From positions 30,657,707-30,721,706 of the forward strand of contig CM055894.1 of assembly GCA_029582155.1 (NCBI GenBank): DNA of 64,000 bases, in the 5' to 3' direction. This document shows positions 7,051-62,131 of this stretch, piece by piece. The stretch is from Panopea generosa. Taxonomy: Eukaryota; Mollusca; Bivalvia; Adapedonta; Hiatellidae. The position numbers and the translations under genes were made by a program. Positions within the stretch are counted from its first letter, which is position 1; every line of letters starts with the position of its first letter. The notes below the pieces were generated by a model. That model did no database searches, was not told the DNA's origin, and saw only the letters and a program-made list of their open reading frames with translations.

Positions 7051-7051
7051 A

Positions 7052-19600: not shown

Positions 19601-20221
19601 CAATATGACTGTTTATGTTGACCATGTTACAGTTACTACTGTTTATGGGGACGATGATGCTACCATCACTGCTGTCATTTTATATGACTGTTTATGTTGA
19701 TCATGTTACAGTTACTACTGTTCATGGTGACGATGATGCTACCAACAATGCTGTCATTCAATATGACTGTTTATGTTGACCATTTTACAATTACTACTGT
19801 TGATGGGGACGATGATGCTACCATCGCTGCTGTCATTGAATATGACTGTTTATGTTGACCATGTTACAGCTACTTTTTATGGGGAAGATGATGCTACCAT
19901 CGCTGCTGTCATTCAATATGACTGTTTATGTTGACCATGTTATAGTTACTATTATTTATGCGGACGATGATGCTACCATCGCTGCTGTCATTCAATATGA
20001 CTGTTTATGTTGACCATTTTACAATTACTACTGTTGATGGGGACGATGATGCTACCATCGCTGCTGTCATTGAATATGACTGTTTATGTTGACCATGTTA
20101 CAGCTACTTTTTATTGGGAAGATGATGCTACCATCGCTGCTGTCATTCAATATGACTGTTTATGTTGACCATGTTATAGTTACTACTGTTTATGGGGACG
20201 ATGATGCTACCATCATTGCTG

Positions 20222-22217: not shown

Positions 22218-23709
22218 CCATGTTACAGTTACTACTGTTTATGGTGACGATGATGCTACCATCAATGCTGTCACTCAATATGACTGTTTATGTTGATCAT
22301 GTTACAGTTACTACTGTTTATGGTGACGATGATGCTACCATCGCTGCTGTCATTCAATATGACTGTTTATGTTGATCATGTTACAGTTACTTCTGTTTAT
22401 GGTGACGAAGATGCTACCATCGCTGCTGTCATTCAATATGACTGTTTATGTTGATAATGTTACAGTTACTACTGTTTATGGTGACGATGATACTACCATA
22501 AATGCTGCTATTCAATATGACTGTTTATGTTGATCATGTTACAGTTACTACTGTTGATGGTGACGATGATGCTACCATCACTGCTGTCACTCAATATGAC
22601 TGTTTATATTTACCCTGTTACAGTTAATACTGTTTATGGTGACGATGATGTTAGTATAAATACTGTCATTCAATATTACTGTTTATGTTGATCATGTTAC
22701 AGTTACTACTGTTTATGGGGACGATGATGCTACCATCGCTGCTGTCATTCAATATGATTGTTTATGTTGATCATGTTACAGTTACTACTGTTGATGGGGA
22801 CGATGATGCTACCATCGCTGCTGTCATTCAATATGACTGTTTATGTTGATCATGTTACAGTTACTACTGTTTATGGTGATGATGATGCTACCATCAATGC
22901 TGTCATTCAATATGACTGTTTATGTTGATCATGTTACAGTTACTACTGTTTATGGGGACGATGATGCTACCATCACTGCTGTCATTCAATATGACTGTTT
23001 ATGTTCACCATGTTACAGTTACTACTGTTTATGGGGACGATGATACTAGTATCAAAACTGTCTTTCATTATGACTTTTTATGTTGATCATGTTACAGTTA
23101 CTACTGTTTATAGGGACGATTATTCTACCATCGCTGCTGTCATTCAATATGACTGTTTATGTTGATCATGTAACAGTTACTACTGTTTATGCGGACGATG
23201 ATGCTACCATCGCTGCTGTCATTCAATATGACTGTTTATGTTGACCATGTTACTGTTACTACTGTTGATGGGGACGATGATGCTACCATCGCTGCTGTCA
23301 TTCAATATGACTGTTTATGTTGATCATGTTACAATTACTACTGTTTATGGTGACAATGATGCTACCATCAATGCTGTCATTTTATATGACTGTTTATGTT
23401 GATCATGTTACAGTTACAACTGTTCATGGTGACGATGATGCTACCAACAATGCTGTCATTCAATATGACTGTTTATGTTAACCATTTTACAATTACTACT
23501 GTTGATGGGGACGATGATGCTACCTTCAATGCTGTCATTCAATATGACTGTTTATGTTGATCATGTTACAGTTACTATTATTTATGCGGACGATGATGCT
23601 ACCATCGCTGCTGTCATTCAATATGACTGTTTATGTTGACCATGTTACAGTTACTACTCTTTATGGTGACGATGATGCTACCATCACTGCTGTCATTTTA
23701 TATGACTGT

Positions 23710-25543
23710 TTATGTTGATCATGTTACAGTTACTACTGTTCATGGTGACGATGATGCTACCAACAATGCTGTCATTCAATATGACTGTTTATGTTGACCA
23801 TTTTACAATTACTACTGTTGATGGGGACGATGATGCTACCATCGCTGCTGTCATTCAATATGACTGTTTATGTTGACCATGTTACAGCTACTGTTTATGG
23901 GGAAGATGATGCTACCATCGCTGCTGTCATTCAATATGACTGTTTATGTTGACCATGTTATAGTTACTACTGTCTATGGGGACGATGATGCTACCATCAT
24001 TGCTGTCATCTAGTATGACTGTTTATGTTGATCATGTTACAGTAACTACTGTTCATGGGGACGATGATGCTACCATCGCTGCTGTCATTCAATATGATTG
24101 TTTATGTTGACCATGTTACAGTTACTACTGTTTATGGTGACGATGATGCTACTATCAATGCTGTCATTCAATATAACTGTTTATGTTGATCATGTTAAAA
24201 TTACTACTGTTTTAGGTGACGATGATGCTACCATCAATGCTGTCATTCAGTATGACTGTTTATGTTGACCATGTTACAGTTACTACTATTTTTGGGAACT
24301 ATGATGCTACCATCACTGCTGTGTCATTCAATATGACTGTTTATGTTGATCATGTTACAGTTATTACTGTTTATGGGGACGAGGATGCTACCATCACTGC
24401 TGTGTCATTCAATATGACTGTTTATGTTGATCATGTTACAGTTACTACTGTTTATGGGGACGATGATGCTACCATCACTGCCGTCATTCAAAATGACTGT
24501 TTATGTTGATCATGTTACTGTTACTACTGTTTTTGGTGACGATGATGCTACCATCACTGCTTTGTCATTAAATATGACTGTTTTTGTTGATCATGTTACA
24601 GTAACTACTGTTTATGGGGACGATGATGCTACCATCACTGCTGTCATTCAATATGACTGTTTATGTTGACCATGTTACAGTTACTACTTTTTATGGTGAA
24701 GATGATGCTACCATCACTGCTGTCATTCAATATGACTGTTTATGTTGATCATGTTACATTTACTACTGTTGATGGTGAGGATGACGGTACCATCGCTGCT
24801 GTGTCATTCAATATGACTGTTTATGTTGATCATGTTACAGTTATTACTGTTGATGGTGACGATGATGCTACCACCGCTACTGTCATTCAATATGACTGTT
24901 TATGTTGATCATGTTACAGTTATTACTGTTTATAGGGGCGATGATGCTACCATCGCTGCTGTCATTCAGTATGACTGTTTATGTTGACCATGTTACAGTT
25001 ACTACTGTTTATGTGGACGATGATGGTACCATCACTGCTGTCAATCAATATGACTGTTTATGTGGACCATGTTACAATTATTACTGCTTATGGGGACGAT
25101 GATGGTACCATCACTGCTGTCATTCAATATGACTGTTTATGTTGACCATGTTAGAGTTAATACTGTTTATCTTGACGATGATGCTACCATCACTGCTGTG
25201 TCACTCAATATGACTGTTTATGTTGACCATGTTACAGTTACTATTGTTTATGGGGACGATGATGCTACCATCACTGCTGTCATTCAATATGACTGTTTAT
25301 GTTGACCATGTTACAGTGACTACTGTTTTTGGTGACGATAATGCTACCATCAATGCTTTGTCACTAAATATGACTGTTTATGTTGATAATGTTACAGTTA
25401 CTACTGTTTATGGGGACGATGATGCTACATCACTGCTGTCATTCAAAATGACTGTTTACGTTGACCATTTTACTGTTACTACTGTTTATGGTGACGATGA
25501 TGCTACCATCGCTGCTGTCATTCAATATGACTGTTTATGTTGA
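23710..25543 (+). repeat. Higher-order repeat within the satellite, copy 2
   Basis: Second copy of the block at 20,222-22,217, two 81-bp units shorter. Point differences between the copies are few compared with differences between neighbouring units. The block duplication is therefore more recent than the spread of the basic unit. Confidence 0.85.
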
Positions 25544-35099: not shown

Positions 35100-38000
35100 T
35101 CATTCTCAGAGCCAGTAGGGCACCCGGTACAAGAAGGGGATAAATAATGAGAAACAACCTCCTGCGTTGGTAGATTCTGATGCGGTGGAGCCGTTAGCAG
35201 TTTCACAAGAGCTTGTACAGGAGGTTGTGAGGCAGATTACACCCCAATTAGTGGAGGGGTGATCTGGTACCATAACAAGCTCCTCTGGCACCGCTACATA
35301 GGAAAGACTCTGGTAAAATATTAAGTTACGATGACGATCATGGGTGTTAATGTAGGTGACATCACAAAGCTAAAATAATGAACGGAGAGTTTGCTGAGTT
35401 TGGACTGCTCATCAGCAATGCTACGCATCCGGGGGACTCCAGTAACAGAGTCTCTGTGAGGAGCAGCTGGTGTTGCAGCCACGGGTTCCCACTACAAAAA
35501 TCAATGTCAATAGGCAGTGGTCTGATGCCTTTTTAGTTTTCATTAGCATTTATACAATTAGCCAAGAAATGACTCAGGGTTTATTAAGATAAATGAGCAC
35601 AGTCCGCCTTGGTGGGCAGAGATATGGTGGCATAGATTGGAAGCTATATGGTGAACAATTTAAAAATAAAAGCTCGGGAACCTAATAAAAGTTGGATAAG
35701 TGTAGACCAGGAACTATGGTTGCTGTATATGTTTCATACGTCAGCGTCCAGTGACGTTTCGGAATCTGCTCGTAAATGCTTTGACTTCAATTATAGTTCT
35801 TGGAATAATCTTTATTGGCGTTGCAATGTAAACGGGTCAGCTCAGTTGGGTATGAATAGTTTTAATTAGTCAGCAAGTGCCCCTATTCACATCTACACAA
35901 AGTTTCCCCGTTCGACCAAGTTTCAGAGCCAATGCACTAGTTCAAGGTTCTCCCAGGGGATTCACGGAATGCGTTGGTCCTCGGTCAAACACCAATCAAA
36001 TTTTTGTCTTTATGTCCTGTTTCAAGCTTCTATCCTAAATTAGAAGCGAAAAAAGAATTAATAAGTGGTTTTAAAAACGGGGATCCTTTGCATTATACTG
36101 GTCCAAGAAACTTAACAGGTTGTAAAAATTGGATTTCTGTAAAATGTAATAAAAAACAAGCGTTGAACTTGGTACTTAAGGAAGTAGCTTTTGCTCAATG
36201 GCGTGCCCATTCGAAAACAAACACTTTACAAATATAAGGCTGTCTCCCATCAGCATTGTACCAAAAAAGCCTTTAAATCAATACATCACTTGTTATATCC
36301 TCAAGGAGAAAGTGTGAACGATTTTATTGATGATAACTTATATAGAGTTCATTACACATCTTTTGATAAAGCAGTTAAAATGGTCAGTTCACTTGGTCAG
36401 GGGGCATTATTAGGTAAAATGGACATTAAGTCTGCATTTAGACTGCCACCTGTTAATCAACAGGACTTCGATCTTTTAGGGTTTAGTCTAGAAAATAAAT
36501 ATTTTTATGATAAATGTCTACCGATGAGATGTTCTAAATCTTGCGCACTCTTCCAAAAATTCTTCACGTTTCTATGATGGGCAGTATTAACAAGAGCCAA
36601 ATGTGGACAAGTCCTTCATTATTGAACGATTTTTTTGTTCGGTGGTCGACGGAATTCAGGTGAATGTTGGGCCATAAAGGGTTCCTTTGTAGACCTTTGC
36701 TCAGAGATAGGTGTTCCTCTTGAACATGATAAGACGGTGGGTCCTACCCACATTCTGATATGTTTAGGTCTGCACATTGATTCAATTGAAATGAAGGTTA
36801 GAATCCCCAATGAAATGTTGGTTGTGCTAACGCATTTGTTATGTTATGTTTTGGACACGAAGAAAATAAATCTTAAAACACTTCAGTCACTAATCGGCTC
36901 GCTATTTTTTGTGCACGTGCAATACCCGCTGCTCGTGTCTTTTGTAGATGTTTCTATGACGCTATGTCTGAGATTGCTAAACCTCATCATTTCATAAGGG
37001 TTACATATCCCATTAGGGAGGACATTAAAACTAGGTTAACGTTTCTAGAATGTTTAAATGGTATTTGCTATTTTCCAGAGCATGAATGGTTAAGTAATTC
37101 GGAGTTACAGCTCTTCACAGATCCATCTGATAATGCTGTTCTTAGATGTGCCGCATATTTTGAGCCCTTTTGGATTTTTTCCGCATGACCTGATACCTGA
37201 CTGTCAACAGAGATATTAAAGGACATAAACTTCTTAGAGTTGGTGCTAACTGTATGGGCTTTTTGAGATATTTCTTTAGGGGCAAAAAGATTATTCTGAA
37301 TACCGATAACGTTGGTCTTGTTTCTATCCCGAACAAAAAGTCGTCCAAATCAAAGATAATAATGCATTTGTTACGACCATTCGTTTTGCAAACAATGCTT
37401 TGTAATGTACAGTGTAAAAGCATTGATATTGAAAGTATGCTTAATAGCATAGCAGATGCAATTTCACGAAGGCAATGGGTTCGTTTTCAGCAAATGGCAC
37501 CAAGGGCGGAGCGACACCCTTTCCCAGTTCCAGAGTCTTTCAAATTGATGATAGCAGGTGTGATCTCAAGTGCTATAAAATCATCTTTAGCGGGCAATAC
37601 TAGAGAGACTTATAACACCGGAGAAAAAGCCTTTCAAATATTAAGAGTTAGTTATAACATGGAGTTATTATGGCCTACAAAAATACAGCAGGTATCTAAC
37701 TTTAAAGCTCACTTGTCATTTAAAGGCAATTCCCCAGCAACATTTAGATCATATCTGGCAGGTGTGGGTTACAAATGCAAAATGAATCATGTTGATGATG
37801 TTACTCCGAATTTTGTTATTAAAAATTGGTTTCCGGTATGGAGCGCCTTGATAAGAGGGTTGATTTCAGATTACCAATTACCCCTGACTTGTTAAAAAGT
37901 ATAACAAGTAATTTACAGGTCTGCATATGAGTCCACATTGTTCTCAGCAACGTTTTCGTTGGCATATTTTGGATTGTTAAGGGTTTGGGAGCTTGTGGCC

Positions 38001-39350
38001 GATTCTAAACGTTTCCCATTTACGCTATATCTGTATCGGATGTCAAATTTACTTTTGAGAATTCGGGCGTTGAGTTGCGTATTCCGCATTCGAAGACATA
38101 TCAATCAGGCAAGGGTACTGTGATTTACCTGCAAGCATTAAATTCTGTCTTATGTCCAGTCAGCCGTCTGAAAACTTATTTAAAACTCCGGCCTTATAAA
38201 CCAGGGCAATTGTTAAATCATTTTGGTCTATCACAGTAGTAGGAATTGATCCGAGTAAACGTAAGTGGCATTCCTTCTGCATGGGAGCAGCCGCTACTGC
38301 CTCAGTTAAGGGTTTGTCCGACAACGATATAAAAGAAATAGATTGATGGGAGTCGAAAGCTTTTAATATTTATATAAGGATCCCAACTGAGTATTTGAAT
38401 TTTCATTCAAATCAATAATCTGACCTGCCAGTTAAGTATTGCAGATGTCTGATCTAGTGTATGGAATGTGGATTCCTCGTTGGTAAAAAGAGCATTCACC
38501 TTCGCAAGGCAATCTACATCTGCTGGTGTCAACCTTGGTTTTGAGAGAGGATCTTTCAATTTATTGTGACAAAGAAAAGGAGGCATGAGATAGCAGCAGG
38601 TGGAGGGAACAATTGAAATGCTGCTGACAGTGGAGGATCCTCCAAACATAATGGTACTACAGTACACGTAGGTGGTAATGACATTGGACTTATTCCTTCT
38701 GCTTATTTAAGAATCAGTATAGTCAAATTAATTCAGGTCATCAAGGACATAATACCTGTTTTACTGATCGTCTGGTCGCAAATAGTACCCGGTTAGTGTG
38801 GCGATATGAGACGGATCATAAAGCTTTGGGAAAAGTTAGGGTCAGGGTAAACAGTAAAGTTACCACTAAATTACTCAGATTAAGTGGAGCCTATATCATA
38901 TAACCGGAAATTTTAAAGTAGATAAGGGACTTTTCTGCGACGGAGTGTTAACCAACATTTTATATATGGTCTGAAAGAAGGGATTAACTGTTTTTTTAAC
39001 TCAAGTGTTCGGGTTTCCCAATCGGTTTAGTGAATAGGGTCATGGCTTTACTTAGTTCTTGTGCAGTCATTTACTTTGGAATTATATCATTGCATTTGTC
39101 ATTAATGGCTTTTGCTGTTAATCTTCCAGACATTTTTTTATTCTATCATAGTACATCAGTTTTCATCCATTTGAAGAGTTTGTGTTATATATGTTGGCCC
39201 GACAAATCGCTTTGATTTGAAGTGCGTCAGCCAAGCATCCATTTGAGGATCTCCTCCATTTAAGGAGTTTTTGTTGTTTGTTGGCGCGACAAATCGCTTC
39301 TATTTGAAGTGTGTCAGTCAGATCTCCACTTGAGGAGTTTGTATACGTAT
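35100..39350 (+). mobile_element. DIRS-type tyrosine-recombinase retroelement, broken fossil
   Basis: Parts in order: a gag-like ORF1 region (about 35,170-35,870); reverse transcriptase and RNase H (about 35,970-37,480; 'MDIKSAFRLPP' and 'NTIADAISR'-like blocks); tyrosine recombinase (about 37,500-38,400); a segment with a GGND motif resembling an SGNH-type hydrolase (about 38,650-38,990); and a 3' region with two ~100-bp direct repeats (39,175-39,340) sharing 'gacaaatcgctt' and 'gtgtcag'. Reverse transcriptase followed by a tyrosine recombinase rather than an integrase identifies the DIRS order. All regions are degraded, with on the order of ten breaks, so the copy is old. Exact termini were not determined. 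Confidence 0.85.
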
Positions 39351-47246: not shown

Positions 47247-47311
47247 TTAACGACTCGTCTGAATTTTCAGGTTTTCATACATTTCCATTCCTGTTTGAGA
47301 AGTGCTCACAC
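47247..47311 (-). CDS. Ig receptor terminal exon with YENL and stop
   Basis: 65 coding bases to the stop codon TAA at 47,247-47,249. It encodes 'VSTSQTGMEMYENLKIQTSR'. YENL matches the Grb2-type YxN consensus and is also a YxxL. Acceptor 'atatttcag/gtgtgag'. The protein ends seven residues after the motif. Confidence 0.88.
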
Positions 47312-50300
47312 CTGAAATATACAACATATATAACATTAATAGCAATAGCCCAGATAGTTTGTGTGTGCTGTGTCCGATTATGTAACAATAGAACCAGTAG
47401 AAATAAATGCAGAATGAGATATCGACATTGACATAGAAGTTGAAACACATATAGTATGCTTTGTCAAAGTAGTATTGGTAGAATAATTATGCATGAGGTA
47501 GTAAAAATAGTAATAGTGAAATGCAAAATGATAATATGTGTATAATAAATGATAGCAACAAATAACTTGTTGCCGATATGGCATTACAATCTATATCATG
47601 AGAGTTGATTTAATTTAACAACACTTAAACATATTTTATTATATTCGGAGCTGTAAAACGAGATTTTTAAATTACAACTTACTGTGCACATCTCAAGATC
47701 AGACTTTTTGTTTGTTTGAGTATTTTGCGTCATGTTTTGCCATTGAGGGCTAACAGACGAACACTTTACCTAACCACACTTTCCTGAGTTCGTACTGGGT
47801 AATCTTATCTTCACAAACAACGTTTCTATTTGAATTAGCGGTGAGAGACGAATGGCAATGAGACGCATTGTCGTCTATCAATCATTATGAGGACTATAGC
47901 CGAGCTGGAGGTCGAACTCACGATCACTGGATGAATAATCAGACACTACCGACCGGGCTTACTAGGTCCGGTTTCAACATAAGTGCAATATCGGAAATAT
48001 CGCAGAATGGTTGTACATGAAGACTAATAGTAGATTTATATTGTATAGTAGTTTTATTATAATGATTTTAAAAACAGACTGTTTATTTTTAACATACATT
48101 TTAATCAATTCAAGAGTAGGTTTTCCCTCCTGAATTAAAAGTAATTTAGATATTTAAACAAATACCTTGTGGATGGATTTTAAGATCTGTATACACATGT
48201 TCTTTTGGATTACTAGAAATTGTAGATTCATAAGTGGCTGTACCGGTATCACTAAAATATATTACAGTATAGTAATACACTTAATATTATTATCAATACG
48301 CCATTATACATGTGTAAAATAAGAGAAATGTAACCAATTATATCTAACTTTTAGTTTGATATACTTACGAATAGCTTTGCGAATAGTCACATATCTAACG
48401 TAAAAACATAACTATTAAATGATCAATAATGGGATATATAATGTGTACATATAGGAATTGTACTATATTTTGTTAAAACTATACTATTGAGATGAACAAA
48501 CGATGAATGGAACTATTCTATTAACACATAAATTACATAAAATATGCAAAACAGCAAAATTTACATTAAAAAGTATGTTTCATACTTTAATTAACTAAAG
48601 TACAGTCAGACTTAACAAACGTAAAACTCCTTTTGCAACCGTATAAAAAAGAAAAGGTATAACATTTACATAACACGCTTGACCAAAAACAAAACAAAAA
48701 ATAGAAAATATACAAAATGACGTACCAGTCTGTCTCGTTTAAGATGATGTCGCCCGTAGCCTCAACTAAAATATATTATAAGCACAATGCAACTCAGATA
48801 CAAAGATACGCACTCTCAAGTTTATAAGCTATGTCCTATATAATAAATTGATCATGCCATGTGCAATTACTAATAATCATTGCCAATACCTCATTTATAT
48901 CGTATGATATATATGATAATATTGCAAAAAAGTCTATGTTAAGGTTTCTAACACAGACTTATGGAACTTCTTATGAATACTAATAATTTAAAGTACTTTA
49001 TACCGAACAGAGGCAGGCAACTGCGCCATTTCAAAAATGAAAAGCATTTCTAAAAATTGATTATATCAGAAATATATTATGTTTTAAATGCTTCATTTAC
49101 CTCAATCAAAATCATTAATTTGGTTCGGGAATGTGATAAGACGCTATTTCCAAAATATTAAAGCAGCATGTTATGTCATCCAATTATATTGGTGAAGTAA
49201 GATCTCTAAATCAATCCGTGAAAATCACGTGTTTTAACCGAGCTAGACAACATGACAACTGCGATGAGCTGTTATGAAACAACACTTTAGAGCACGCAGT
49301 CATTGAATACTTTCTTATATTGTTATTCAACATACTGGATTGTATTACTCTAACTAACACTGTACATGTCACGCACGATTGAATGCGTCAGGTGTATGTT
49401 TCTTACCTGTTGGAGACATGTTATAGTACACATGTTGCTCTTTAGGTACGTCTTCAAATTGTTTACTATTTTTGTTTAATGTGTTTAAACATGTACACTT
49501 TCCTACAATATAAACATACACACTATGTGTAATCTAAGAATACGAAATGATAATACAATAGTACATGATACACGAAGATGCTAGTAAAACTCCAGTTGTA
49601 TTTGTTTCACAGATCAATTTTATAATTATATAATAATATTCCACAATTCCTTACATATATTTTTTTTCTATATTTCCCTCATATTTTGAAATATAAATCT
49701 TAGTTTTTATCTTATTTCATACAAACCGAGGTTTCGCTGTCGTCGAAAGATAACTACAGCAGCAATAACAATAACAATTACTGCAATACTGCCCACAAAT
49801 GTTCCCACAAGTAATGCTGTATTATTGGGCTGCACTTGTACCGGAGTCTCTGAAAGTAGAATTTCTCATTATAGAAATATTATCCTTTTCATGTCATTAT
49901 TATATGTACTACTGTTTTTTGTTCGTACACTGATTATAATTCTGGAATTATATATTTTGCGTTAAAGCGAAGCTTCAAGAACAGTAACTGGTACTACCCG
50001 ATCGCTTATATAGCAAGTGTGGGTTAGTCTCACATGCCTAGAGGGGAAAGCAGCAATATAACTATTTATGTAAACAATTACTCATCGTATGACCCCTTCT
50101 TATGCAACAAACACTATCCCTTTCTTTGTTAGAGAAAACGTACCATATGAAAGACATTATAAGAAATTCGATATTCCAATTAAGTCGCTTGTCTTGTATA
50201 CGCTCATCAATCGCAGCTTTGATGCAATTGTCTAACGAGATCTGAGACACTGTAACAGTGTCGACTTTTGAATCGAAAATCTAGATTAAAGGCTCATCTG

Positions 50301-53300
50301 CTAGCTTTGGTAAATCGCCAATCTGTAAAATTATATCGTTGCTCACAGAAACATGTCTGAAATCTACAATATTTAAATTTTGAATCAATTCATCACTCAT
50401 TATGGTGTAGCGAAGACAGATTAGCGTACACTGAAACAGAGTCATCCAAATAGCCGTACGTCAATCATAAGGATTAACGGACACATCGACGGTAGGAAAT
50501 GATAACAACAAAAGGTTAACGGATAGTGATTACAGTCAAATCAGTGAATACGAATCCAAAAACTAAAACAACTGTCACAAATGTAAATACGATCGCTATG
50601 CAATTACATATTATAATTAGGATGAAGAAAAGGTATAATGATATGAAGACATTTTATTCTCATGGCTAGTGTATTTATAATATTTAGCAAATTGAATGTG
50701 AATTGCTTGTCTCAGATCATTTTCAAAGATTTTCTAATAAAAGAACTGCAAATACTACCTGGATGATTACAGTTTATTAACAATACATGTCACAATCAAA
50801 CAGTTAACATATATGTCTAATATCTGCTAGCTAAAGCTCAACACACATTTCTATGATAAATAGAAAGTATTTATTCTTGCATTTTGTTTCAAAATGTAAT
50901 ATTTAACATATTGAAACATGTTTCTGAATTAAATAAAACTACATCAATATTGAGTATTCAAATGTCATACATGTACCTGCTGTTTTAAAAACTTCTATTT
51001 CTGTAGAACTATTTGTTCCAATAGCATTATATGCGGATATTCGTACTTCATAAATCGTTCCAGTGGACAAGCCGTCGAGTGTTATATTAGTAGCCGGTTC
51101 TTGCAATATATTAATTGTCCATTGTTCGTCTGATTTTGCCTTATATTCAATTTTAAAGGTTTGATCCAAGCCGCCATTAAAACCTGACTTCCACATAATA
51201 GTTAATGATGAGAATGTTGTTAGCTCTGGAATGTGGCGAATATTAGTTGGTGCTTCTGGTTTATCTACAAAAAGAGAAACAATTTATAACACAAACTATG
51301 TATAATGAGAGTGGCTAGTAATGTTATATAAAGATATATAAAAGTATTATATATTTTGTGTTATAAAATCAATAATATTTATTATTATGTCAATGCGTCC
51401 AACGGATATTTCTACCAGATATTAGTAAAATGCCTATTAATATATTATTCTATACATACAGACCATGTACTGACGCCCGAGTATATAATTAAAAAGTATT
51501 ACAGTAACTTGAGATAATATTAAAATGATACACATTTTAAAGGAAAGAAATTAAATGAAACATAATTAACATAATATCATTATCATCAATAAGAGAAAAA
51601 AAATTATATACTGTGTTTTGATTCCTTGAAGAATATTATCCGTTAAGAATAACATGCGTTAATATTATCCACCTAATATATCTATTTTTGTGTCAAGTAA
51701 TTATGCATAATAAATTGAAACCGTACCGAAAGTCGATTTATTTGCAAAATGGATGCCATGATTACTTGTGGGATGCTAAAATATGCATTGGACCATTTTG
51801 TAATACAAACTCGTGTGTAAATGCTTTACATTTATTTAAATAATCATAATAGACATAGTTTTGTATACTAGGCACATATCATACGAATACATTTTAAAAT
51901 TCAACATGATTCTTACCTTCCAACACAATTTGTACAGGAACCACACCCTCTCCTATATTATTCTTTATAACTATAACATAAAATCCAAGTTGAGATGTTT
52001 GCGTGAGTGCCATTGTGATAGTTGTCATGGTCCCTTCGGTGTTTACCATCTGTGCAAACACAGGTAGTTGTACTACCACGGATTTGCTGTTAAATGTATG
52101 TACATTGGACGTTCGTCTTGTGTTATTGACCAGTTTATAACAGTTCACATTGGGTGTATCGCCATTGTTGTAATATTGCACAGATATGATTGCTGGGATA
52201 TGTGTGTCAAGTCGTGTTGACACTTTATGGTACTGACCATTGGGTACCACAGGTTCTGTGATAATCGGGAATGCTGCAATTAAATATGAAAATCAACATA
52301 CTTTAGCATACAGTGTAGCTACAAACAAATGTTGTTTTTTTTTTATGATCATGACAGAACTATTTCGAATAGTTTAAAGCAAATGTTATTTGTTATTAGG
52401 AAATTGAATGTTCGGTATATTATATCATCTGCGCATTTGTCAATAACAGGAAATAAAGTACTTACATTCCACTTTAAGGTGCACATCACCCTGACCAGCA
52501 TTACCGTTCATACTCTCAGTGACACCGTTACTAGCTCTACACGTGTATAAGCCAGAATGTTGGTATGATAAATCTGTTAATGTCAGTGTGGGTGAGTTAC
52601 CAAGTTGTGTCAGGAGAGGAACTGTATGACCATCAGAAATCCAAGCTTGTGTCCAGGGATGGTATGTATAAGATGCTGGAACACCAGACGGAGAACAAAA
52701 TATATCCACGTGACTGTCGTTAACGGTCACATTCTGAGTTGTTACGATTACACCTGGAGCATCTGTCAATAGTAATGTAAGAGTGAATGTATAACGTGAA
52801 TGGAGATATGTACGAGGGGCGTTTGTAAAGTCCGTGCACTTGGCCTGTATCTCTGTTAGTTTTTATTCAATAAATATAATTTGCATGTATATAGGAAGGT
52901 CATGAAATTTCCAATTCAGTGATCACGAATCTGCAAGTGCAAATCATAACAGTTAATATATCTTATTGTTTTGTTTTTTTCTCACCCAAGGTTATAGGCA
53001 TGCTGATTCTGACACAAGGCGGCTACACGGGGTGTGTATTGGTGACGATACATGGTTATCGCATTTTGAGCCGGAAGGAAAGGAAAATAATATAGTCTGG
53101 ATAGGTGAAAACGGGGAAAGGTATCAGATAGCAAGAAGACGTGTAATGTATGCTGTACTATGGAGACTCTGGTGCGGTAAGAGCCTGCTGTCCTCTGCTT
53201 TGTCCTGTCCTAGGTGTAGCTAGGATAAAAACAAACTGAAGCATTACAGTAAAAGTGAAAGATTATTATTATTATAGCATGTGTTTGGCAATTGGAGGAC

Positions 53301-56300
53301 ATATAATTTGTCTGAAAGGAAATTGATAAATGACATACAATTATAGAATGATGAAATAAAATATGCAGACCATATAGTAGGCATTTCAGTGATGTGAATG
53401 TCTGGATATATTTGGTATGTAGTGGACGATCCTGAACAAAAAAGAAATTAGAGGTAAGATTTGATGCAGTATGGTACAGTTTTGACGCGTATAACTTTCC
53501 TATTCCATACACTTATGCTCATTTTACTCAGCCCAAATATATGCATGTACTTGATTTTTTATCATGCGATATATACTTCACGTTTTCGTTGTTATTATTG
53601 AGAGACTACCCAGGTTTTCTAAACACATCCCCTGCATTCCCACATGGCTTGTACTTAACTGGAACTGCATATGGAGTTCGCGGACGGCGATTTTGTCTAT
53701 TTTGTGTATACTAGTGCATCAGCTGTTATATATGGGGAATAATCTTAAGTACAAGTTGCTGCACTAGTTGCATTTTTACGAAATGTTGTCACGTCAACTA
53801 GGTTTTCTAAAGACATGTTGAATGGTTTGTTCTACATCATCTATACCACACATTAAAAAATAACCTACATTGTACAACAACAGTCAGTGTACTGGTAGCC
53901 ACTTTGTTGTACTGTGAAGCGGTATTGCTAGATATACACCTATATCTTCCAGCATCATATCTTGTCACTTTAGCAAGGGAAATAACTCCATATGTTCCAG
54001 TAGGGGAATTATTAGTTATGTTTGTCCAGGAGAAAGAACAGCTTGGGTAGCAGTCTGCAGTACATCTTATAGTGATACCAGTGTTTCTCTCTGTGACCGT
54101 GTATGGTGACTCTCTATTGATAAGTGCAACATCTGGTCCATCTGCCAATAATGAAATAGTATAGGTTTGAATATTATACAATGTATAACAAGTATATAGT
54201 ATATAAGTAATTCCCTCTAGGTGAAAAAGTAACAGTACAATAGTTATCGCGTGAATCTAATTAAAATGGATATGTGTGTGCTGTTGAATATAATCAAATA
54301 ATAACCAGTTTTACAGTTAGATATATATCTATCATAACATGTCATTTGCTATGTAAATTCCCAGAGCTGTGTCAATTACCTTTTCAAAACGGTATATCCA
54401 TTATAATTGTGATCCTTTTACTATTGAATTCAATAATATTGTTTTCTATTAAAGCTACATATACTATAATTCAATTGCCATGTAGCATGTACCTTGTATA
54501 TGTAGTGATTTTACCATCATACAATTGACTATTTTTGTTACGGTTAGACGTTAACTGTAACATAAATCTTTGTGTTCTATAATATGTGTCAACATTTATA
54601 CTTATTAATACTGCATAAGATTTGATATGTATTAGGTTTATATTATATGTCATCAACATTTCATACTGTTAAGGTCGTTATAACACAAGAGGTGGCATAC
54701 TAATTAAGGGATTTATTACCGGTGGTGAAACCCCTATAACGGTCATATACATAGTTCCGATAAATTGCAAGTGATGGATGGATATATTCTTTTGTTAGTT
54801 AGGCACTGGTGAATAAAAAAAGGTTCAGTAATCAATTTCGTAAATTCTTGTTCCCGAGTTCTATAAATTGCTTAGTATTGCTGTCGTAGTGGCGATATGG
54901 AATTAGTTTCAAGTTTAAACTGTCAACTTAAAAAGGTAACGAATAAGGCTGGTATACACTTGCATGTTGTTTTTATACATAGTTAACAGTTCCTTAAAAG
55001 AAATAAGATAAAGTACAAAATAATATATTCAAAGTATTTGTAACATAATATACTATAGATTAAAACATTTGCATGGTGTAGTTAAAACGCAATCTAGCTG
55101 AAGATAAAATATTGAAGCTGTATTCCGATATCTAACACACATTTTAGGGAAATTACCATATTATTTATTGTCTTTATAAATAATGTGTTCGATTCGTGTG
55201 CAGTGAGAGTAGTTCCATCTGCACGTTGAAATTCTCACTAAACTTTTCTATGTCAATCAGTGATCAAAAAAGTGTAATTGGATAGATAGTTTTGCCCCAC
55301 GTTTATTGCGAAATAGCATTATGTTTGCGAATATTCTGCAAGGATTGTGTGATGTTTCTGATCAATTTGATTATTCTACATGTTTCACCATTCTTTATGT
55401 GCTATAAAGTGCATAGGCAATGTTAATACCCTTTACTTATAGACTGGTGAAATAAAATGAATAATAAAGTGCATGAATATTCGATTTCCGTTCTGTACAT
55501 AATCGTTATAAAAGTGTATACATATTACAGTAGAACATCGATGGGTCGATATAGACGGGACTGGACAAAATAGTTCGAGTTAAGCGTTGTTCGAGCCAAG
55601 TATTGTTCAACATCATACCATACATGTTTTTACATCGAAATAGGAATTTTGCCGGGATCAGTTAAATGGTTAGAGCTACAGTATATGTGGTGCTACAGCC
55701 ATTCGTATTCGAGCCAACTAAGTTCTACTGTATCTGAATGTTTCCTTACTATTAAAATGTTCGATTAATTTGATTTTTTTTTAAATAACTGGACAAAAGC
55801 AGTATAGTATAGTTCAACTTGAACAACTGCCGTCATATATTTTTCATCTTGACTCAGATTTTTATACATCGGATCTCAGCATAGTTCTTGTTTTTTAAAG
55901 GAAAATGTACTACATATGTCATCCGAAGTATTAATGTACCAATATATGTTTAAATTGTCCCACGTGTTATGTACAATGCGCTGCGTATGACGCTAAAGCA
56001 ACTTTCTGTCTTTCATTTTTACCTGGGCAAATTTGTCTAGGTCTAGTAGTCCTGTTTCAAAGCTTCTTAGGATAGATGTTCTATAAATAGTAACAACTTT
56101 CAAAAACCGAAGGAAAAAGTACCATATTTAAGTTACTAATCGCTAATTATTCTAATTTAGCTTGACGATATAAAACCATCCAGCTTGGACCTTTTTTCGG
56201 TACTTTGTAATATTATTATTGTATATTTGATTCATTATGTATTCTTTTCGTATTCATTTATCTAATAAGCCAAGCGGATGGATACATCGCAGATTGTCAC

Positions 56301-59300
56301 CCAGGCGACCCGAGCTAGAATCCAACAGTATTTTTTGTTAATTTCACTAGCAATACCATTTACTGACGATAATCCTATAAAAATAGGTTACAAAAAGACA
56401 AAATAAAAATGATTTGTCCATAGTTTGGACTCCATACATGTATATGCAATTGTATCTTTGCTCATATATAGCAACGTTTTATTTGGATATTATTTGCATA
56501 GTTTAACTAGGAGAATCAACATTTTTAAAAAATCAATATATACATACAAATATAATATATTGACTATGAGCTAACGATGTGCTGAGCGTAAAAAACTTTC
56601 TTTGAAATACATAATTCAACCTTTTTTAAAATATATTTTAATTTTGATGCTGTAAAATATATTGTAAATCATGGTTATGGGATTTTGTAATTAAACTTTT
56701 TCATGGAGATATGCTTTTAAAAAATGTAGATTAATCTAGATCATCTTGAAGATTGGACGTTCTTTAATACCTAATTCAACTTGGAGAACGGATTTTGTCA
56801 TAATATGTACGTGGGAATTGAACTTCTTAAATATATAATTCAACTTGGAGATTGAAACTTTCTACATATATACATCTAGGTCATCTTAGAGAGTGAATTT
56901 TTTTAATTCAATTTGGAGATTGAACTTTTATTGAAATACATCATACAACTTTGATATGGACTTTTGCATAGATCATTGAACTTGAAGATTGACTCTTTTG
57001 AAAATATATAATTCAATTCTAAGACATAACTATTTCTTTTTAAATTTACACATTTAGATCATTTTGCAGATTTTATTTAAAAAAAAAACAGTAATGTAAA
57101 CTTTGGTAGTAATTTTCATTAGTTGGGCATCTGAGAGATTGTTTAACTGTCTTTGAAAATATCGTTTTACTTGGAAATTGCACTTTCTTTGAAGCAAATA
57201 TTAAATATTTATCAACCTGGAGACTGAACTATGAAATATCATTTTTACAGCTAAACACTCTAAACAAATAAAATAAAATAGTTTCCTGTCTTATGTATTT
57301 TGTTGTACACATACAACAATCAGCGGTTTCTAAATACTTCTGCTATATCACTTTCCAACAGTATCCTTATATAATGTTCCGGGCTACATTTAACATCTAC
57401 TTAAACATTACTTCATTTCTACTTGACAACTGTTTTCCCAGGTTTCAGTACTTTAAGTACTTTGATTATAATTGTGTTTATACGAAAATATTTATATCTT
57501 AACATTCCTTATGTTTCTTTACAACTTCTATATACAAATAAGTGACACGACCCACAATGACCCTTCGAGTGAATGGGAAGTTGACTGCACATTTATGAAA
57601 AAATAAAACATATACTGATCGTTTATATTGAAACATATTTTTTGAAAGTTTCCTTTGTGGAGTGGAAATTCAATAACACACGTTTTGCCTAAACAGTAAT
57701 GACTAAAACACAATGTATATAATAGATAAAATAATATCACAATCTGCTATTTACCATCAATCCCATCTTCACATCCTCGCCAACAGCTCATTCTGGAAAT
57801 GCCTGCAATAGTAGCCCATTAGGACTTACCAGTATTAAAAGTTGTTTTTGTTTTCGTAAGTAATAATTGAGCCAGTAATATGTGTGCATATTGGTTAAAG
57901 ATACTTTTAAATTAATAACTTTCAAATTAGTTACATACATCTCACACTCAGTGACACTGTCTTCTTTGTCTGTGGACTGTTTGCTCTGTCAGGATTTCTA
58001 GCTGTACAAGTGTAGTTACCAGCCTCGGTACGGTTCAGCTGGCCAAGTGACAGAACACCATTTGTGGTTAATGTACCAGTACTGCCCGTCTTTGTCCATG
58101 TGTATGTACAACCAGGATAGCAAGTGTCACTACACATTATATTCTGTAGACTGGTACCTTCATTTCTTATGTAGGTAGTCAGGGATGGACTTAAAGCTAA
58201 CGATTCTGGTCCATCTGATAAAATATGCAGAAACAGTAAAATGGCAAACTATGCATAACATATTTCGTACTAGATATATAACGGACGGGAACATTTATAC
58301 CAAATTAAATTCATGGTAATTCTTTCGACACAATAAGAAAACATATCACTAGAAATTCGCTGAAAATAACTTTTATGGACAGATATATCTTATTAAGTAA
58401 ATAACCCCCCTAACATTGTACATAATGATATATACATTAAGTATTTCAGCACATTGTCGGCAAAATATCTCCATGCATACTAATATTGTTGTTGAGAATA
58501 AACGTTTTATACATATCAAAGTGAATTATATCATGAACAATAACACCACCCTAGTGTATGTTAATCTGTATTTGACTATGACAGCGGTTTTAAGTGACAT
58601 TCTATTCCAAATATTATCACTATTTTCGTTTGGTTATAATGAAAGAAACCTAGGGAATATCACACATTCAATTACTCAAATATTTGTTTTATACTGTTTA
58701 ACGGCATACCAATAATTATATTCCATGTTTGTTTACGTGAGAAAATATCTGTATTAAATAATTAATAATTCCGTTATCAAGAGAAACTTTAATAATATTT
58801 TTCCAAAAGCCTAAATAATAAACATGCAACGCTAGAATGGAGCAACGATACACATATCTAGAAGGCAGACTGCAAAGTGGACAATTTCACTAGTATAAAA
58901 CAAATACAAAGTTTAATATTGAAAGAAACATTGTTAGCTTACAAAAGAACGGTAATACAAAAATAAATAGATACATGGATCATCTAAATAATACAACAGA
59001 GTGTGATAATACATTATTCTGAAATTTCGTTCAATAAAAAGGGCAAATCATCCTCAATGCGTTCACAAATCAACAGAGACACTGACCTACAACACAGTCT
59101 AGAAGGAATCAGGATAATATAGCATAAACTTGCATCTGAAAATTTTGATGATTGTTATTTATCAAAAAGGCTGATAAGATGCTTACTCAGAACACAACTC
59201 ATCTAGATTTAGAAAAGCACATTCTTTGACCAAACATGGGTTGTGGAATGTACATGTTACATAACGTTCCTCAATTCATGAAAAAATCTGGAACATTTAA

Positions 59301-62131
59301 GCGCCTGTAATCTTTAAGAATCTGTTCTCATATATATCAAGTCAAAGAGTAAAGTTTACGTTTGTACAATAAACATTAATTTAACTTTTGACACGCATTG
59401 ACATAATGTTGACCTAAGGTAAACTATGGCATTCTCATACTGGTATGCGGAGTTGTATATCCGTTTGCGGGTACAATCTAACTTGTTTTTAATAAATCAG
59501 GGAGAAAGCAAAACAGTGACAATCTTAACATTGCCATATTATCATATTTATAGATGTTTTAGTATACATTAGCTTATGGTTTAGGAGATAAAGATTATTA
59601 TAACGATATTGATATATATGTTATTCAGGAGACATAAATAGTATTGTGTAAAAGTTCCCACTATTTAGTTGTTGTTATTGTTATTAAGATATATATTCAA
59701 AGCACAGCACAGTTATGAGATAGAACGACATACACACACATGTACACACACACAAACACACATGTACGTACAAACGTTATCAAGCAGACGATATAAAGAT
59801 ACACACAGAGGAGATATAACAACAACAACACACACAGTACGATACATGCATTGTATATGGGGAAACGATACATTACGATAAACACACTGAAACAGAAACA
59901 ATAAACAAAACTAACAGATGATAGAACAATATACACATACACAGGGCATAGAGCAACATACATACGTGGGGTTGAACAATATACCACAGGCATCATAACG
60001 ATATACACACAAAGGACAGAACGATACACACAGTGGAAAAAACAATATACACACAGGTTATAACAACAACAACGATAACAACAACATTTACTTTTTTACC
60101 ATCTGGGAGAGAGAGAACATTCCGACAAATATTCTTTCTTGCTATAGACTTCGGAAGGCTTGGAATTTAAGAATAACTTTTATGATGGAACTTGGTATTG
60201 TTTTTAATGCACATTATATTTTATTTTGGGGTTGAGATTTTAGCAGGAGACCGTTATCAAACATAATATTTGTGCTGGAACTAGGTATTGTTTCATGCGC
60301 ATGGTTTTGAATTTTTTTTTAACTTTAAAACGGTTCTCAACCATTTGCTGTTCAGGCACGTTGTCTGAACAGAAAGTCACCATATAAAATAGTGTTGAAC
60401 AACAGTTAGTCCAACAGTACTAGGGTTTGAAACCTTATATCGTATAAAGATAATTGATCGGATCATTTATTTGTATGTTTTCGTAATATTAGAATCATTT
60501 TATTTTGTTTGAAATTGACGAATTATGATGCAAAAAGCCTGAGGTTAATTTATATATTATTATAGTTTAAACAGAACAAGCTAGGCTGTTTTTAGCTAAA
60601 GTCAGTGACGCAGTTGCCTTATAGAAGATCCCGTTTAAAATTACGACAAAATCTTGACAAAATAAAAAAGTACTTGAATATGCATGTCACAAATTCTACA
60701 ATGAATGTGCTTTGTTATAATTAGGATAATATTACTTGACGGTTTGCACAAGAGCTTTTACAAAGTTATTTAGTTTATTTCTAATATGTATTATGGGTTT
60801 CGTCAGAAGTTCTTTATATTTTATTAAAATTGAGCGCTTGTGGAAACAACGTGGTATGAATATGCTACAGCTATGTTAATAGTCAGGGCATTTTGAAAAG
60901 TAGTGGAACTCGTCGCCAATATCGGAGTTACAATGTGTACACCACCTTAGGCTTTCATCAACATGAGTATATATTCCTGTTTCAATAGTTTGTCGGCGCA
61001 AAATTAAATAAATGTAAGTACATTGGTAACTTTATGTAATTTTTAATCAAATGATTATCTTAAAATAAATTGTATGTTTACCGTTTGATAACATGAAAAC
61101 ATTGGTCTAGCCAAATATGCTTAATAGTAATATGGATATTTTTATTGATGACAGATTTTAGATTTCAATATTGTGTTGACCCAGATTGAATGATTTCTTA
61201 CGCCGAATACAACTAGAGGATAGAACGATGTATACAGGAGTTATCACGATACAAACACAGGGATTACATTGTTATTATGATGCACATAATGCATACATGT
61301 AAAACGATCCACATACAAAGGATATATTGATACACACAGGGGGTAGAAGAATGCACACGCAAGACATGTTTCCGGTCCAAGATTGGAATAAATAGATGCA
61401 AAACAATTATTGATGACACTTATTCCAAGTCTTAAATATACGTGAATGATATCGCAAAAACTACAAAAGATGTGTCTGGGTATTTTTTAATTCGAAAAAA
61501 AAATAGTATTAAGACTCAAGAAATACATCACATGTTCACTTCAATTAGTTTACATTCATTTTAAACTTCAGACTTCTCTTTGTGAAATACAATTAATATA
61601 TAATATAAGTTATCCGTACACTCTCTATATCGTGTGAAGTTGTAGGAACCATACTTACATAATATTATTACAATAATAATCAAATATGCTAGTAATGCGA
61701 CATTTTGTTGCCAAAATATGTTTTATCATCATAGGAAAAAATGTTAAAATACAATTAAAATATAATAGACAATGCAACTATATTTAACACTATAACATGT
61801 TCATATATACTCTTTCTATAGAGTATGAACTAGTACGCATCATATTTACATATAACATTAACAACGACGTCTTTAGTCCCTGTGTACCCAGGTCGACCTG
61901 CCCTATTGGGGTTATTGGCTGTACATCTATAAGTACCTGCCTCAGAACTTTGAAGTGTTCCTAGGGTCAGTGTACCGTTAGTACCTATCTGTGAAGATTG
62001 ACCAAGTCTCGTCCACGTGTATGCACAACTCGGGTCACAATCAGCAGTACATCTGATGGGATCTAGTGTTGTTCCTTCTTCTTCTTCATACACAGTGGCT
62101 ACAGGTGTAAACTGAATGTTGTCGGGGCCGT
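47247..62131 (-). CDS. Ig-superfamily transmembrane receptor with tyrosine tail, 3' part, 11 exons
   Basis: A host gene read on the minus strand. Exons (high to low coordinate): 61,850-62,131; 57,939-58,214; 53,869-54,141; 52,466-52,762; 51,917-52,273; 50,977-51,264; 49,727-49,849; 49,407-49,502; 48,726-48,765; 48,166-48,251; 47,247-47,311. Each has AG before and GT after, and all join in one frame of about 628 codons. Order: three Ig domains, one canonical Ig domain, one divergent Ig-like domain, one FN3 domain, a membrane helix, and a tail of about 95 residues with YYNM, YTDL and YENL. Ig domains plus one FN3, a single helix and a tyrosine tail resemble the layout of nephrin-like adhesion receptors and of ITIM-type Ig receptors; I cannot assign orthology. 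It should sit in the plasma membrane, bind ligand outside and recruit SH2 proteins inside. The signal peptide and any earlier Ig exons are not seen. Confidence 0.9.
47742..47970 (-). mobile_element. tRNA-derived SINE in the last intron
   Basis: The minus strand starts with a tRNA-like head 'acctagtaagcccggtcggt' and a B-box-like 'cgtgagttcgacctc'. The body includes 'gtctcattgccattcgtctc' and 'gtacgaactcaggaaagtgt' and ends near 'ttagccctcaatgg'. I recognise this body from a bivalve SINE family. It is in the same orientation as the receptor gene. Confidence 0.75.
48166..48251 (-). CDS. Ig receptor exon: cytoplasmic tail 3 with YTDL
   Basis: 86 bp, phase 2 in, phase 1 out. It encodes 'DTGTATYESTISSNPKEHVY' followed by TDLKIHPQ. 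The motif Y-T-D-L-K-I echoes Y-E-N-L-K-I in the last exon, and 'KEHVY' echoes 'KEQHVY' two exons earlier. Acceptor 'atattttag/tgatac', donor 'cacaag/gtattt'. Confidence 0.82.
48726..48765 (-). CDS. Ig receptor exon: cytoplasmic tail 2, 40-nt microexon
   Basis: 40 bp, entering in phase 1 and leaving in phase 2. It encodes 'EATGDIILNETD'. Acceptor 'attttag/ttgagg', donor 'gactg/gtacgt'. Its length is not a multiple of three, so including or skipping it changes the frame of the rest of the tail. The next exon reads its tyrosine motif only when this exon is included. Confidence 0.7.
49407..49502 (-). CDS. Ig receptor exon: cytoplasmic tail 1 with YYNM
   Basis: 96 bp, phase 1-1. It encodes 'KCTCLNTLNKNSKQFEDVPK' followed by 'EQHVYYNMSPT'. 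YYNM fits both YxxM (PI3-kinase p85 SH2) and YxN (Grb2 SH2) consensus sequences, as does the YMNM of CD28. Acceptor 'tattgtag/gaaagt', strong donor 'aacag/gtaaga'. Confidence 0.85.
49727..49849 (-). CDS. Ig receptor exon: transmembrane helix
   Basis: 123 bp, phase 1-1. A short stalk 'TPVQVQPNNTA' is followed by the hydrophobic stretch 'LLVGTFVGSIAVIVIVIAAV' and then VIF and 'RRQRNL'. The basic stop-transfer cluster puts the C-terminus in the cytoplasm (type I topology). Acceptor 'ctttcag/agactcc', donor 'cctcg/gtttgt'. Confidence 0.92.
50062..50400 (-). pseudogene. Unidentified protein-like frame inside the FN3-TM intron
   Basis: On the minus strand an ATG at 50,400 opens 'MSDELIQNLNIVDFRHVSVS' and continues 'NDIILQIGDLPKLADEPLI' to a TAG near 50,280. 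The same frame then runs on as 'ISLDNCIKAAIDERIQDKRL' to a stop at about 50,062. The total is about 112 codons with one internal stop. Composition is protein-like and quite unlike the flanking intron. I recognise no family. It may be a captured gene fragment. Confidence 0.35.
50977..51264 (-). CDS. Ig receptor exon: fibronectin type III domain
   Basis: 288 bp, phase 1-1. It begins 'KPEAPTNIRHIPELTTFSS', has the B-strand Trp in 'LTIMWKSG', 'FKIEYKAKSDEQW', the C-terminal signature 'TIYEVRISAYNAIGTNSSTE' and ends 'VFKTAG'. Acceptor 'tttttgtag/ataaacc', donor 'agcag/gtacat'. This is the last folded domain before the membrane. Confidence 0.93.
51917..52273 (-). CDS. Ig receptor exon: divergent Ig-like domain
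   Basis: 357 bp, phase 1-1, about 119 residues and longer than the other Ig exons. It begins 'FPIITEPVVPNGQYHKVST' and ends 'VVPVQIVLEG'. A single Cys occurs in 'NVNCYKLVNNT'. The expected F-strand Tyr-x-Cys is replaced by Val in 'LGFYVIVIKNN', so the canonical disulfide is absent. Acceptor 'aattgcag/cattccc', donor 'ggaag/gtaaga'. Its place between Ig4 and FN3, and the FYV-x-x-x-NN pattern, suggest an Ig-like fold without its disulfide. Confidence 0.8.
52466..52762 (-). CDS. Ig receptor exon: Ig domain 4 (canonical)
   Basis: 297 bp, phase 1-1. It begins 'APGVIVTTQNVTVNDSHVD', has the B-strand 'VDIFCSPSG', a Trp at 'WTQAWISDG', and the F-strand 'YQHSGLYTCRASNGV', ending 'GDVHLKVE'. Acceptor 'attgacag/atgctcc' and a strong donor 'ggaat/gtaagt'. 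It lacks the extra Cys pair of the first three domains and looks like a standard I/C2-type fold. Confidence 0.92.
52813..53222 (+). mobile_element. Mariner remnant in the Ig3-Ig4 intron
   Basis: After a TA it begins 'cgaggggcgtttgtaaagtc', a mariner end. The plus frame at 52,966-53,222 includes 'GVCIGDDTWLSHFEPEGKEN' and 'NIVWIGENGERY', the stretch around the first catalytic Asp of mariner transposases (family pattern TGDETW-hhHFEPE). The N-terminal region, the other two catalytic Asp residues and the right inverted repeat were not found. It is an internally deleted, dead copy. Confidence 0.8.
53869..54141 (-). CDS. Ig receptor exon: Ig domain 3
   Basis: 273 bp, phase 1-1. It contains 'ITIRCTADCYPSCSFSWTNI' and 'YDAGRYRCISSNTAS', ending 'STLTVVVQ'. 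Acceptor 'ttggcag/atggacc', donor 'acaat/gtaggt'. The Cys cluster matches the two previous Ig exons, so the three form one subfamily made by exon duplication. Confidence 0.92.
55528..55730. mobile_element. 203-bp MITE with inverted repeats and TA target duplication
   Basis: Ends 'cagtagaac' and 'gttctactg' are perfect inverted repeats, flanked by TA at 55,526-55,527 and 55,731-55,732. The subterminal 'gttcgagccaa' type blocks also appear twice. A TA duplication and a CAGTAGAAC-type end suggest mobilisation by a Tc1/mariner-superfamily (pogo-like) transposase. Non-coding. Confidence 0.85.
56575..57240. repeat. Degenerate tandem repeat, 'aattcaacttggagattgaa' type
   Basis: About ten imperfect copies of a ~50-70-bp unit. 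Each has a version of 'aattcaacttggagattgaa' followed by a tttct/ttgaaat stretch. Spacing varies, so this is an old array. Confidence 0.65.
57755..57802 (-). other. Possible 48-nt cassette exon of the Ig receptor
   Basis: A minus-strand segment bounded by 'attgcag' and gtaaat. It is in phase 1 at both ends and, between the Ig2 and Ig3 exons, would add 16 residues including 'ISRMSCWRGCEDGI' without breaking the frame. The acceptor's pyrimidine tract is weak, so this may be chance. Confidence 0.25.
57939..58214 (-). CDS. Ig receptor exon: Ig domain 2
   Basis: 276 bp, phase 1-1. It contains 'IMCSDTCYPGCTYTWTKTG' and 'RTEAGNYTCTARNPDRANS', ending 'KTVSLSVR'. Acceptor 'tatcag/atggacc', donor 'tgagat/gtatgt'. 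It has the same extra Cys arrangement (C-x3-C-x2-C) as the first and third Ig exons. Confidence 0.92.
59690..60070. repeat. AC-rich degenerate repeat, 'gaacgatacacacag' type
   Basis: A (ca)n-rich start at about 59,730-59,770, then irregular copies of 'agaacgatacacacag' and 'gaacaatatacacatacac', ending in a caacaacaacg run. A related block lies at 61,210-61,370. Confidence 0.65.
61210..61370. repeat. AC-rich degenerate repeat, second block
   Basis: Contains 'ggatagaacgatgtatacag', 'cacgatacaaacacaggg' and 'gatacacacagggggtagaa', the same motif as 59,690-60,070. The two blocks are separated by about 1.1 kb of unrelated DNA. Confidence 0.55.
61850..62131 (-). CDS. Ig receptor exon: Ig domain 1 of those visible
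   Basis: 282 bp, phase 1 at both ends. It begins 'GPDNIQFTPVATVYEEEEG', has the B-strand region 'IRCTADCDPSCAYTWTRLG' and the F-strand 'EAGTYRCTANNPN', and ends 'KDVVVNVI'. Acceptor 'tttttcag/acggcc' and donor 'ttatat/gtaaat'. The extra Cys pair in CTADCDPSC lies between the usual B-strand Cys and the Trp. This is the most 5' exon I can support; a tandem array of partial copies of it lies directly upstream. Confidence 0.9.

Follow-up and report, generated by a model that had tools for sequence, protein, structure and literature searches.

The locus considered here raises the question of what the tail of a bivalve immunoglobulin (Ig) receptor is for. It lies in a 64,000-nucleotide stretch of the Panopea generosa genome (contig CM055894.1, positions 30,657,707 to 30,721,706), which is called the window below and whose own numbering is used throughout. 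On its minus strand, a receptor gene runs through Ig, fibronectin type III (Fn3) and transmembrane exons and ends in four tail exons (T1 to T4, 49502-47247) that carry several tyrosine motifs. Such motifs could dock SH2 proteins or endocytic adaptors, or could be the remains of a decaying gene.

Structure of the receptor gene

The exons of the gene are listed in Table 1. Ig domains, a membrane span and a cytoplasmic tail, the features of an Ig superfamily receptor, were all found, and every exon checked had an open frame and AG/GT ends. From order, strand and phase, we infer that all the listed exons belong to one transcript. Pfam Ig_3 was matched by four exons, all with E 9.7e-7 or better, one of which fell marginally short of the cut-off that the other three passed. 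The exon at 51917-52273 gave no Pfam match at E up to 0.1 and nothing significant against the PDB in a profile comparison (best E 0.56); it is 80-97% identical across seven aligned paralogues. The transmembrane exon encodes a 19-residue stretch with a mean hydropathy of 2.99. A scan for a signal peptide exon, over the 10,000 bases of the window that lie furthest upstream of the gene, gave weak candidates only, none of them certain, and the gene may start beyond the window.

Table 1. Exons of the receptor gene, in window positions, listed from the 5′ end of the gene.
Feature	Position	Strand	Basis
Ig domain exon (DGP type), phase 1-1	61850..62131	-	Pfam Ig_3 E 3.3e-9; splice ends read
Ig domain exon (DGP type), phase 1-1	57939..58214	-	Pfam Ig_3 E 4e-8; splice ends read
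Ig domain exon (DGP type)	53869..54141	-	Pfam Ig_3 E 9.7e-7, 29.6 bits (cut-off 30); splice ends
Ig domain exon	52466..52762	-	Pfam Ig_3 E 3.5e-8; splice ends
Extracellular exon without assigned fold, 118 whole codons	51917..52273	-	Conserved in paralogues
Fibronectin type III exon	50977..51264	-	Pfam fn3 E 1.4e-10, over cut-off; splice ends
Transmembrane exon, ending in RRQRNL	49727..49849	-	Hydrophobic span; splice ends
T1, HVYYNM (YxN and YxxM)	49407..49502	-	AG/GT ends, frame
T2, 40 nt, acidic, without tyrosine, phase 1 to 2	48726..48765	-	AG/GT ends, frame
T3, YEST and HVYTDL, phase 2 to 1	48166..48251	-	AG/GT ends, frame
T4, EMYENLKIQTSR (YENL), then stop	47247..47311	-	AG/GT ends, frame

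On the plus strand of the window, open frames built from a repeated VYVDHVTVTTVYGDDDATI-like unit occupy 18974-25543, and reverse-transcriptase-like retroelement frames were recognised by eye at 7049-7999 and 36188-38239, those at 36188-38239 being possibly DIRS-like, also by eye.

Motifs in the tail of the window gene

A first-pass annotation of this DNA had described four tail exons with the motifs YYNM, YTDL and YENL. This was borne out, as the exons join in frame with AG/GT ends and the interval assigned to them runs exactly from the start of T1 to the stop. The four exons join in a single frame, which is broken if T2 alone is left out. Counted from RRQR, the tail is 101 residues long; tyrosines occupy positions 32, 33, 59, 72 and 92, and the motifs follow in the order YYNM, YEST, YTDL, YENL.

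The tail of the window gene contains no match to the ITAM pattern YxxL/I-x(6-12)-YxxL/I, the spacer between YTDL and YENL being 16 residues, and none to the ITIM pattern [SIVL]xYxx[ILV]; on the spacing and on both patterns, our count agrees with the annotation. The GRB2-type arrangement YxN (Y with N at +2) occurs twice, in YYNM and YENL, and three motifs fit the endocytic pattern YxxPhi. Among 100,000 shuffles of the tail, 4.9% had at least two YxN and 4.8% had at least three YxxPhi, the two together occurring in 0.245%; because chance yields both at this last rate, composition alone makes the tail only moderately surprising, and conservation among copies is the stronger argument for its motifs.

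Candidate relatives of the tail were rejected, since they consisted of sub-cut-off Pfam matches (DUF7729, E 0.0059; HEAT_GCN1, 0.074; GAPT, 0.14) and a single PDB match at chance level (E 1.7). A second tail sequence gave no match in Pfam.

A family of tail copies

The genome searched comprises 1.47 Gb in 39 contigs. A protein search with T3 and T4 gave 81 matches, which by hand count are 54 T3 (window gene included) and 27 T4. Most of them lie on contig C1 (29-31, 40 and 43-50 Mb), and C5, C10 and C23 hold some too. Forty-one of the 54 T3 copies were read, again including the window gene, and the other 13 are outside the counts given below. T1 was located in 32 of these 41 copies and T4 in 32, some of the retrieved stretches ending before those exons. 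Broken copies are included in the motif counts (L012 has a stop just before the T1 motif and L041 a stop inside T3).

The order TM-T1-T2-T3-T4 was found in 18 of 20 whole loci (9.9 kb each, window gene included), the exceptions being L020, without a T2 match, and L022, without T1 and T2. Judged from these copies, the tail is a module of a large, locally duplicated family and not the peculiarity of one gene. The annotation's picture of an SH2-type tail with a CD28-like YxNM on an Ig receptor would stand, but for a multigene module rather than a single-gene curiosity.

The Ig exon 62131-61850, used as a genome query, gave 544 first-look candidates, 150 of which were scored and listed. Among the matches listed, all but one lie on contig C1, at about 1-7, 14-16, 29-32, 47-51 and 80 Mb, and those on C1 form a chromosome-wide array.

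In a tree of the tail exons, rooted on L036 by choice and drawn without support values, YYNM is present in the window gene and in the divergent subfamilies except the L036 group (YYNN), and YYNV, FHNM and deletions fall within the clade to which most closer copies belong. YYNM may be ancestral within the main clade.

Conservation of the motifs among copies

The motif YTDL is nearly invariant in T3, with the tyrosine in 40 of 41 copies, T at +1 in all 41, D at +2 in 38 and L, I or V at +3 in 40. The tyrosine of YEST, also in T3, is conserved in 40 of 41 copies as well; the three motifs first described are all present, but this fourth conserved tyrosine had been overlooked. In T4, 28 of 32 exons have no stop before the tyrosine of YENL (L020, where a stop follows directly after Y, is counted among them), and all 28 have both Y and N+2, with L at +3 in 25 and M in 3. 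In the remaining copies (L011, L012, L013 and L028), a stop lies two positions before the last tyrosine, the acceptor AG of T4 is displaced and YENL reads YEYL, with N+2 replaced by Y in all four. Loss of N+2 is expected there because the site is untranslated, and the change may be one event, all four copies belonging to one clade.

In 26 of the 32 copies, both splice sites that frame the 16-residue spacer between YTDL and YENL are where they should be, and the T4 acceptor is displaced in six (the four copies just named, L017 and L023). A spacer of 16 in 32 of 32 copies, as given by the ungapped alignment, is partly so by construction, and the figure from the splice-site check is the 26 of 32. 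The shared YxxLKI of the last two motifs, pointed out in the annotation, holds for the window gene and its closest copy; YTDLKI occurs in just 2 of 41 copies, and the repeat was discarded as a real feature.

T1 is more variable. Among its 32 exons, N+2 is found in 27, Y together with N+2 in 22 and Y, N and M together in 10, while +3 varies between M, V, L and N. The tyrosine is absent in 10 exons: it is F in five, which retain N+2, is removed by a 12-nt deletion in three (L018, L024, L025), is F alongside a 5-nt deletion in L019, and is lost with the frame in L046. Per-position entropies for T1 are inflated, since the alignment left out stop codons and some of its rows continue beyond a stop or reach into intron sequence. 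The ITIM pattern was matched among the T1, T3 and T4 exons of the copies only by T1 of L036 and L037, at the neighbouring tyrosine.

Selection and recent copying

Between TM and T4, 92-100% of the non-exon bases align in the closer copies L010, L015, L016 and L026, so the agreement of these four is partly recent ancestry and proves little. Five divergent copies were also compared, and four of them align over the exons but not over most other sequence: aligned bases were 370 of 410 in exons and 647 of 2440 elsewhere for L031, 282/410 and 279/2440 for L032, 387/410 and 288/2440 for L043, and 347/410 and 314/2440 for L045. The exception is L046, with 287/410 exon bases and about half of the other sequence (1289/2440). 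Less weight is given to L047, L048 and L049 (151/410 exon bases each), which were retrieved without TM to T2, and to L029 (189/410) and L036 (86/410).

Values of pN/pS, uncorrected and with 13 loci judged broken excluded, were 0.34 for T3, 0.39 for T4, 0.50 for Fn3 and 0.93 for T1 in the common subset of six loci with all exons. Larger sets gave 0.65 for T1 (21 loci), 0.55 for T3 (28) and 0.47 for T4 (20), which are not clearly below the value of Fn3 in its six loci. No synonymous change was found among copies in the Y codons of YTDL and YENL. These figures suggest moderate constraint on the tail, with hardly any on T1 in the six-locus subset; the likeness of the tail among copies is the result of both selection and recent copying.

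Proposed docking of GRB2 and alternative readings

The reading that we prefer, with slightly better than even confidence, is that of a GRB2-docking tail, with a second SH2 protein or an endocytic adaptor at YTDL, on a duplicated family of Ig/Fn3 receptors. When the ectodomain of this type I membrane receptor is engaged, a tyrosine kinase would phosphorylate the tail. The phosphorylated YxN sites, YYNM in T1 and YENL in T4, would then dock GRB2-type SH2 adaptors, leading to a Ras/ERK-type output, and YTDL in T3 would dock a second SH2 protein (of SHP2, PLC-gamma or Syk type) or an endocytic adaptor. The copies that keep YYNM, the window gene among them, are the only ones in which PI3K could be recruited. 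What was observed is the layout of the exons, their frame, the pattern of conservation and the matches to candidate partners in the genome; phosphorylation, binding, output and ligand we infer.

N at +2 is given as a requirement for GRB2 binding, and Y226 of LAT as a YENL site, in the available text of PMC5510181; the Ig tail tyrosine (ITT) motif YxNM of mIgG recruits Grb2, with YxN conserved and not YxxM, in that of PMC4263166. The paralogues of the window gene likewise keep YxN and not YxxM, which favours GRB2 over PI3K, although the rule is not strict, given the T1 exons that lack the tyrosine. The YxxM of PI3K-docking receptors is present in the window gene and is not kept across the family. 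YYNM had been proposed as a double PI3K/Grb2 site, and this does not hold for the paralogues, in which N+2 far outlasts the full YxNM; PI3K as the main partner was rejected, as M+3 is not conserved (Y with M+3 in 10 of 32 T1 exons). Against the GRB2 reading itself stand the loss of the T1 tyrosine in 10 of 32 exons, the displaced T4 acceptor in 6 of 32 and the stops in several copies. The pN/pS of 0.93 for T1, the tail values in the larger sets, the recent ancestry of the closer copies and the lack of synonymous change in the two Y codons count against it too.

Possible partners are encoded in the same genome. Exons with best PDB matches to PI3K p85, SHP2 and PLC-gamma were found, including tandem-SH2 exons. 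The GRB2 SH2 domain has two matches (62-63%) and a Syk-like N-SH2 domain a weak one on C8, both of these assignments being by search score. A single Syk-like gene plus SHARK is described for invertebrates (PMC10253181, available text).

It is also conceivable, if unlikely, that YTDL-x16-YENL is a stretched pair of fixed length that is gripped by one tandem-SH2 protein (SHP2, Syk type or PLC-gamma) and works in the manner of an ITAM. The absence of any length change in the 26 copies with both splice sites in place would fit such a pair, as would the SHP2, PLC-gamma and p85 tandem-SH2 exons and the weak Syk-like match; the stretch presumably echoes the ITAM sequence of FcR-gamma, and the tandem SH2 of Syk is said (Kumaran 2003) to adapt to different interphosphotyrosine distances. 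However, the tail of the window gene does not conform to the ITAM pattern, and duplication without indels also yields a constant spacer. Moreover, the invariant N+2 of YENL is characteristic of GRB2 sites and is not known to be required by tandem-SH2 proteins, and the residues at -2 (H and E) misfit what we take to be the preferences of SHP2.

Somewhat less probable still is that the motifs are YxxPhi signals read unphosphorylated by AP-2, which would set the surface level of the receptor and not its signalling. Three tail motifs fit YxxPhi, and the +3 residues of YTDL and YENL among the copies suit it too, but this leaves the conserved N+2 of T1 and T4 and the T+1 found in all 41 T3 copies unexplained. 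That the tail is the decaying relic of a fast-duplicating family, and the window gene no working receptor, seems to us improbable. A number of copies do have stops, deletions or displaced splice sites, T1 is weakly constrained and the window holds no certain signal peptide exon; against this, the checked exons of the window gene are open with AG/GT ends, pN/pS of T3 and T4 is low in the six-locus subset, and exons are conserved over introns in most of the divergent copies.

Relation to known receptors and meaning for the family

The GRB2-docking reading can be set beside several known systems. The ITT of mIgG and mIgE resembles the clam tail in having YxNM in the tail of an Ig receptor and in keeping YxN rather than YxxM (PMC4263166, available text). 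In contrast, the ITT is a single site on a receptor that stands beside ITAM-bearing chains, whereas the clam tail has several tyrosines on each chain and shows no match to the ITAM pattern.

LAT, a short adaptor with Y226 near its C-terminus, has no Ig ectodomain, and the ectodomain of CD28 differs from that of the clam receptor. We claim no relationship of descent between LAT and the clam tail. According to the available text of PMC5510181, LAT resembles it in having a tail with YENL and several YxN sites, and CD28 in having a YxNM to which GRB2 and PI3K can both bind; unlike in CD28, M+3 is not conserved in the clam paralogues. The tail had been called tuned in its own way, which undersells its closeness to known GRB2 sites, the YxNM of the ITT and the YENL of LAT.

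In the oyster, CgIgIT reportedly bears an ITIM and signals in an inhibitory manner. CgIgIT2 is described as a membrane-spanning protein that has five Ig domains, bears a classic ITAM and signals through ERK, an output that we also propose for the clam tail, and both oyster proteins resemble the clam receptor as transmembrane Ig receptors of a bivalve with a tyrosine motif in the tail (PMC11999971, available text). Tyrosine-motif Ig receptors are therefore not new in bivalves. The clam tail differs from that of CgIgIT2 in that it does not conform to the ITAM pattern, and the receptor has an Fn3 domain, the two being compared by description only. Bivalve genomes also hold abundant hemicentin-like multi-Ig genes of largely unknown function; these hemicentin- and nephrin-like expansions are similar in their abundance of multi-Ig genes, but no signalling tail is described for them in the available text of PMC13093298. 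A literature search, mostly outside subscription journals, found no paper on this series of tail motifs.

The tail is found again in dozens of related genes of this genome, so that this clam Ig family probably signals rather than just gluing cells together. A wider proposal, tentative and on balance doubtful, is that the series YxN(M)-YEST-YTDL-x16-YENL is an immunoreceptor-type cassette evolved in molluscs and common to dozens of duplicating Ig/Fn3 receptors, a germline-diversified repertoire with one signalling module in which YTDL and YENL would be the long-spacer counterpart of an ITAM. Should this long-spacer pair prove bidentate, evolution would have arrived independently at the function of ITAMs. 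The conserved phosphotyrosine-type tail leads to a concrete, testable claim, namely that many such multi-Ig genes would be signalling receptors, most likely coupled to GRB2.
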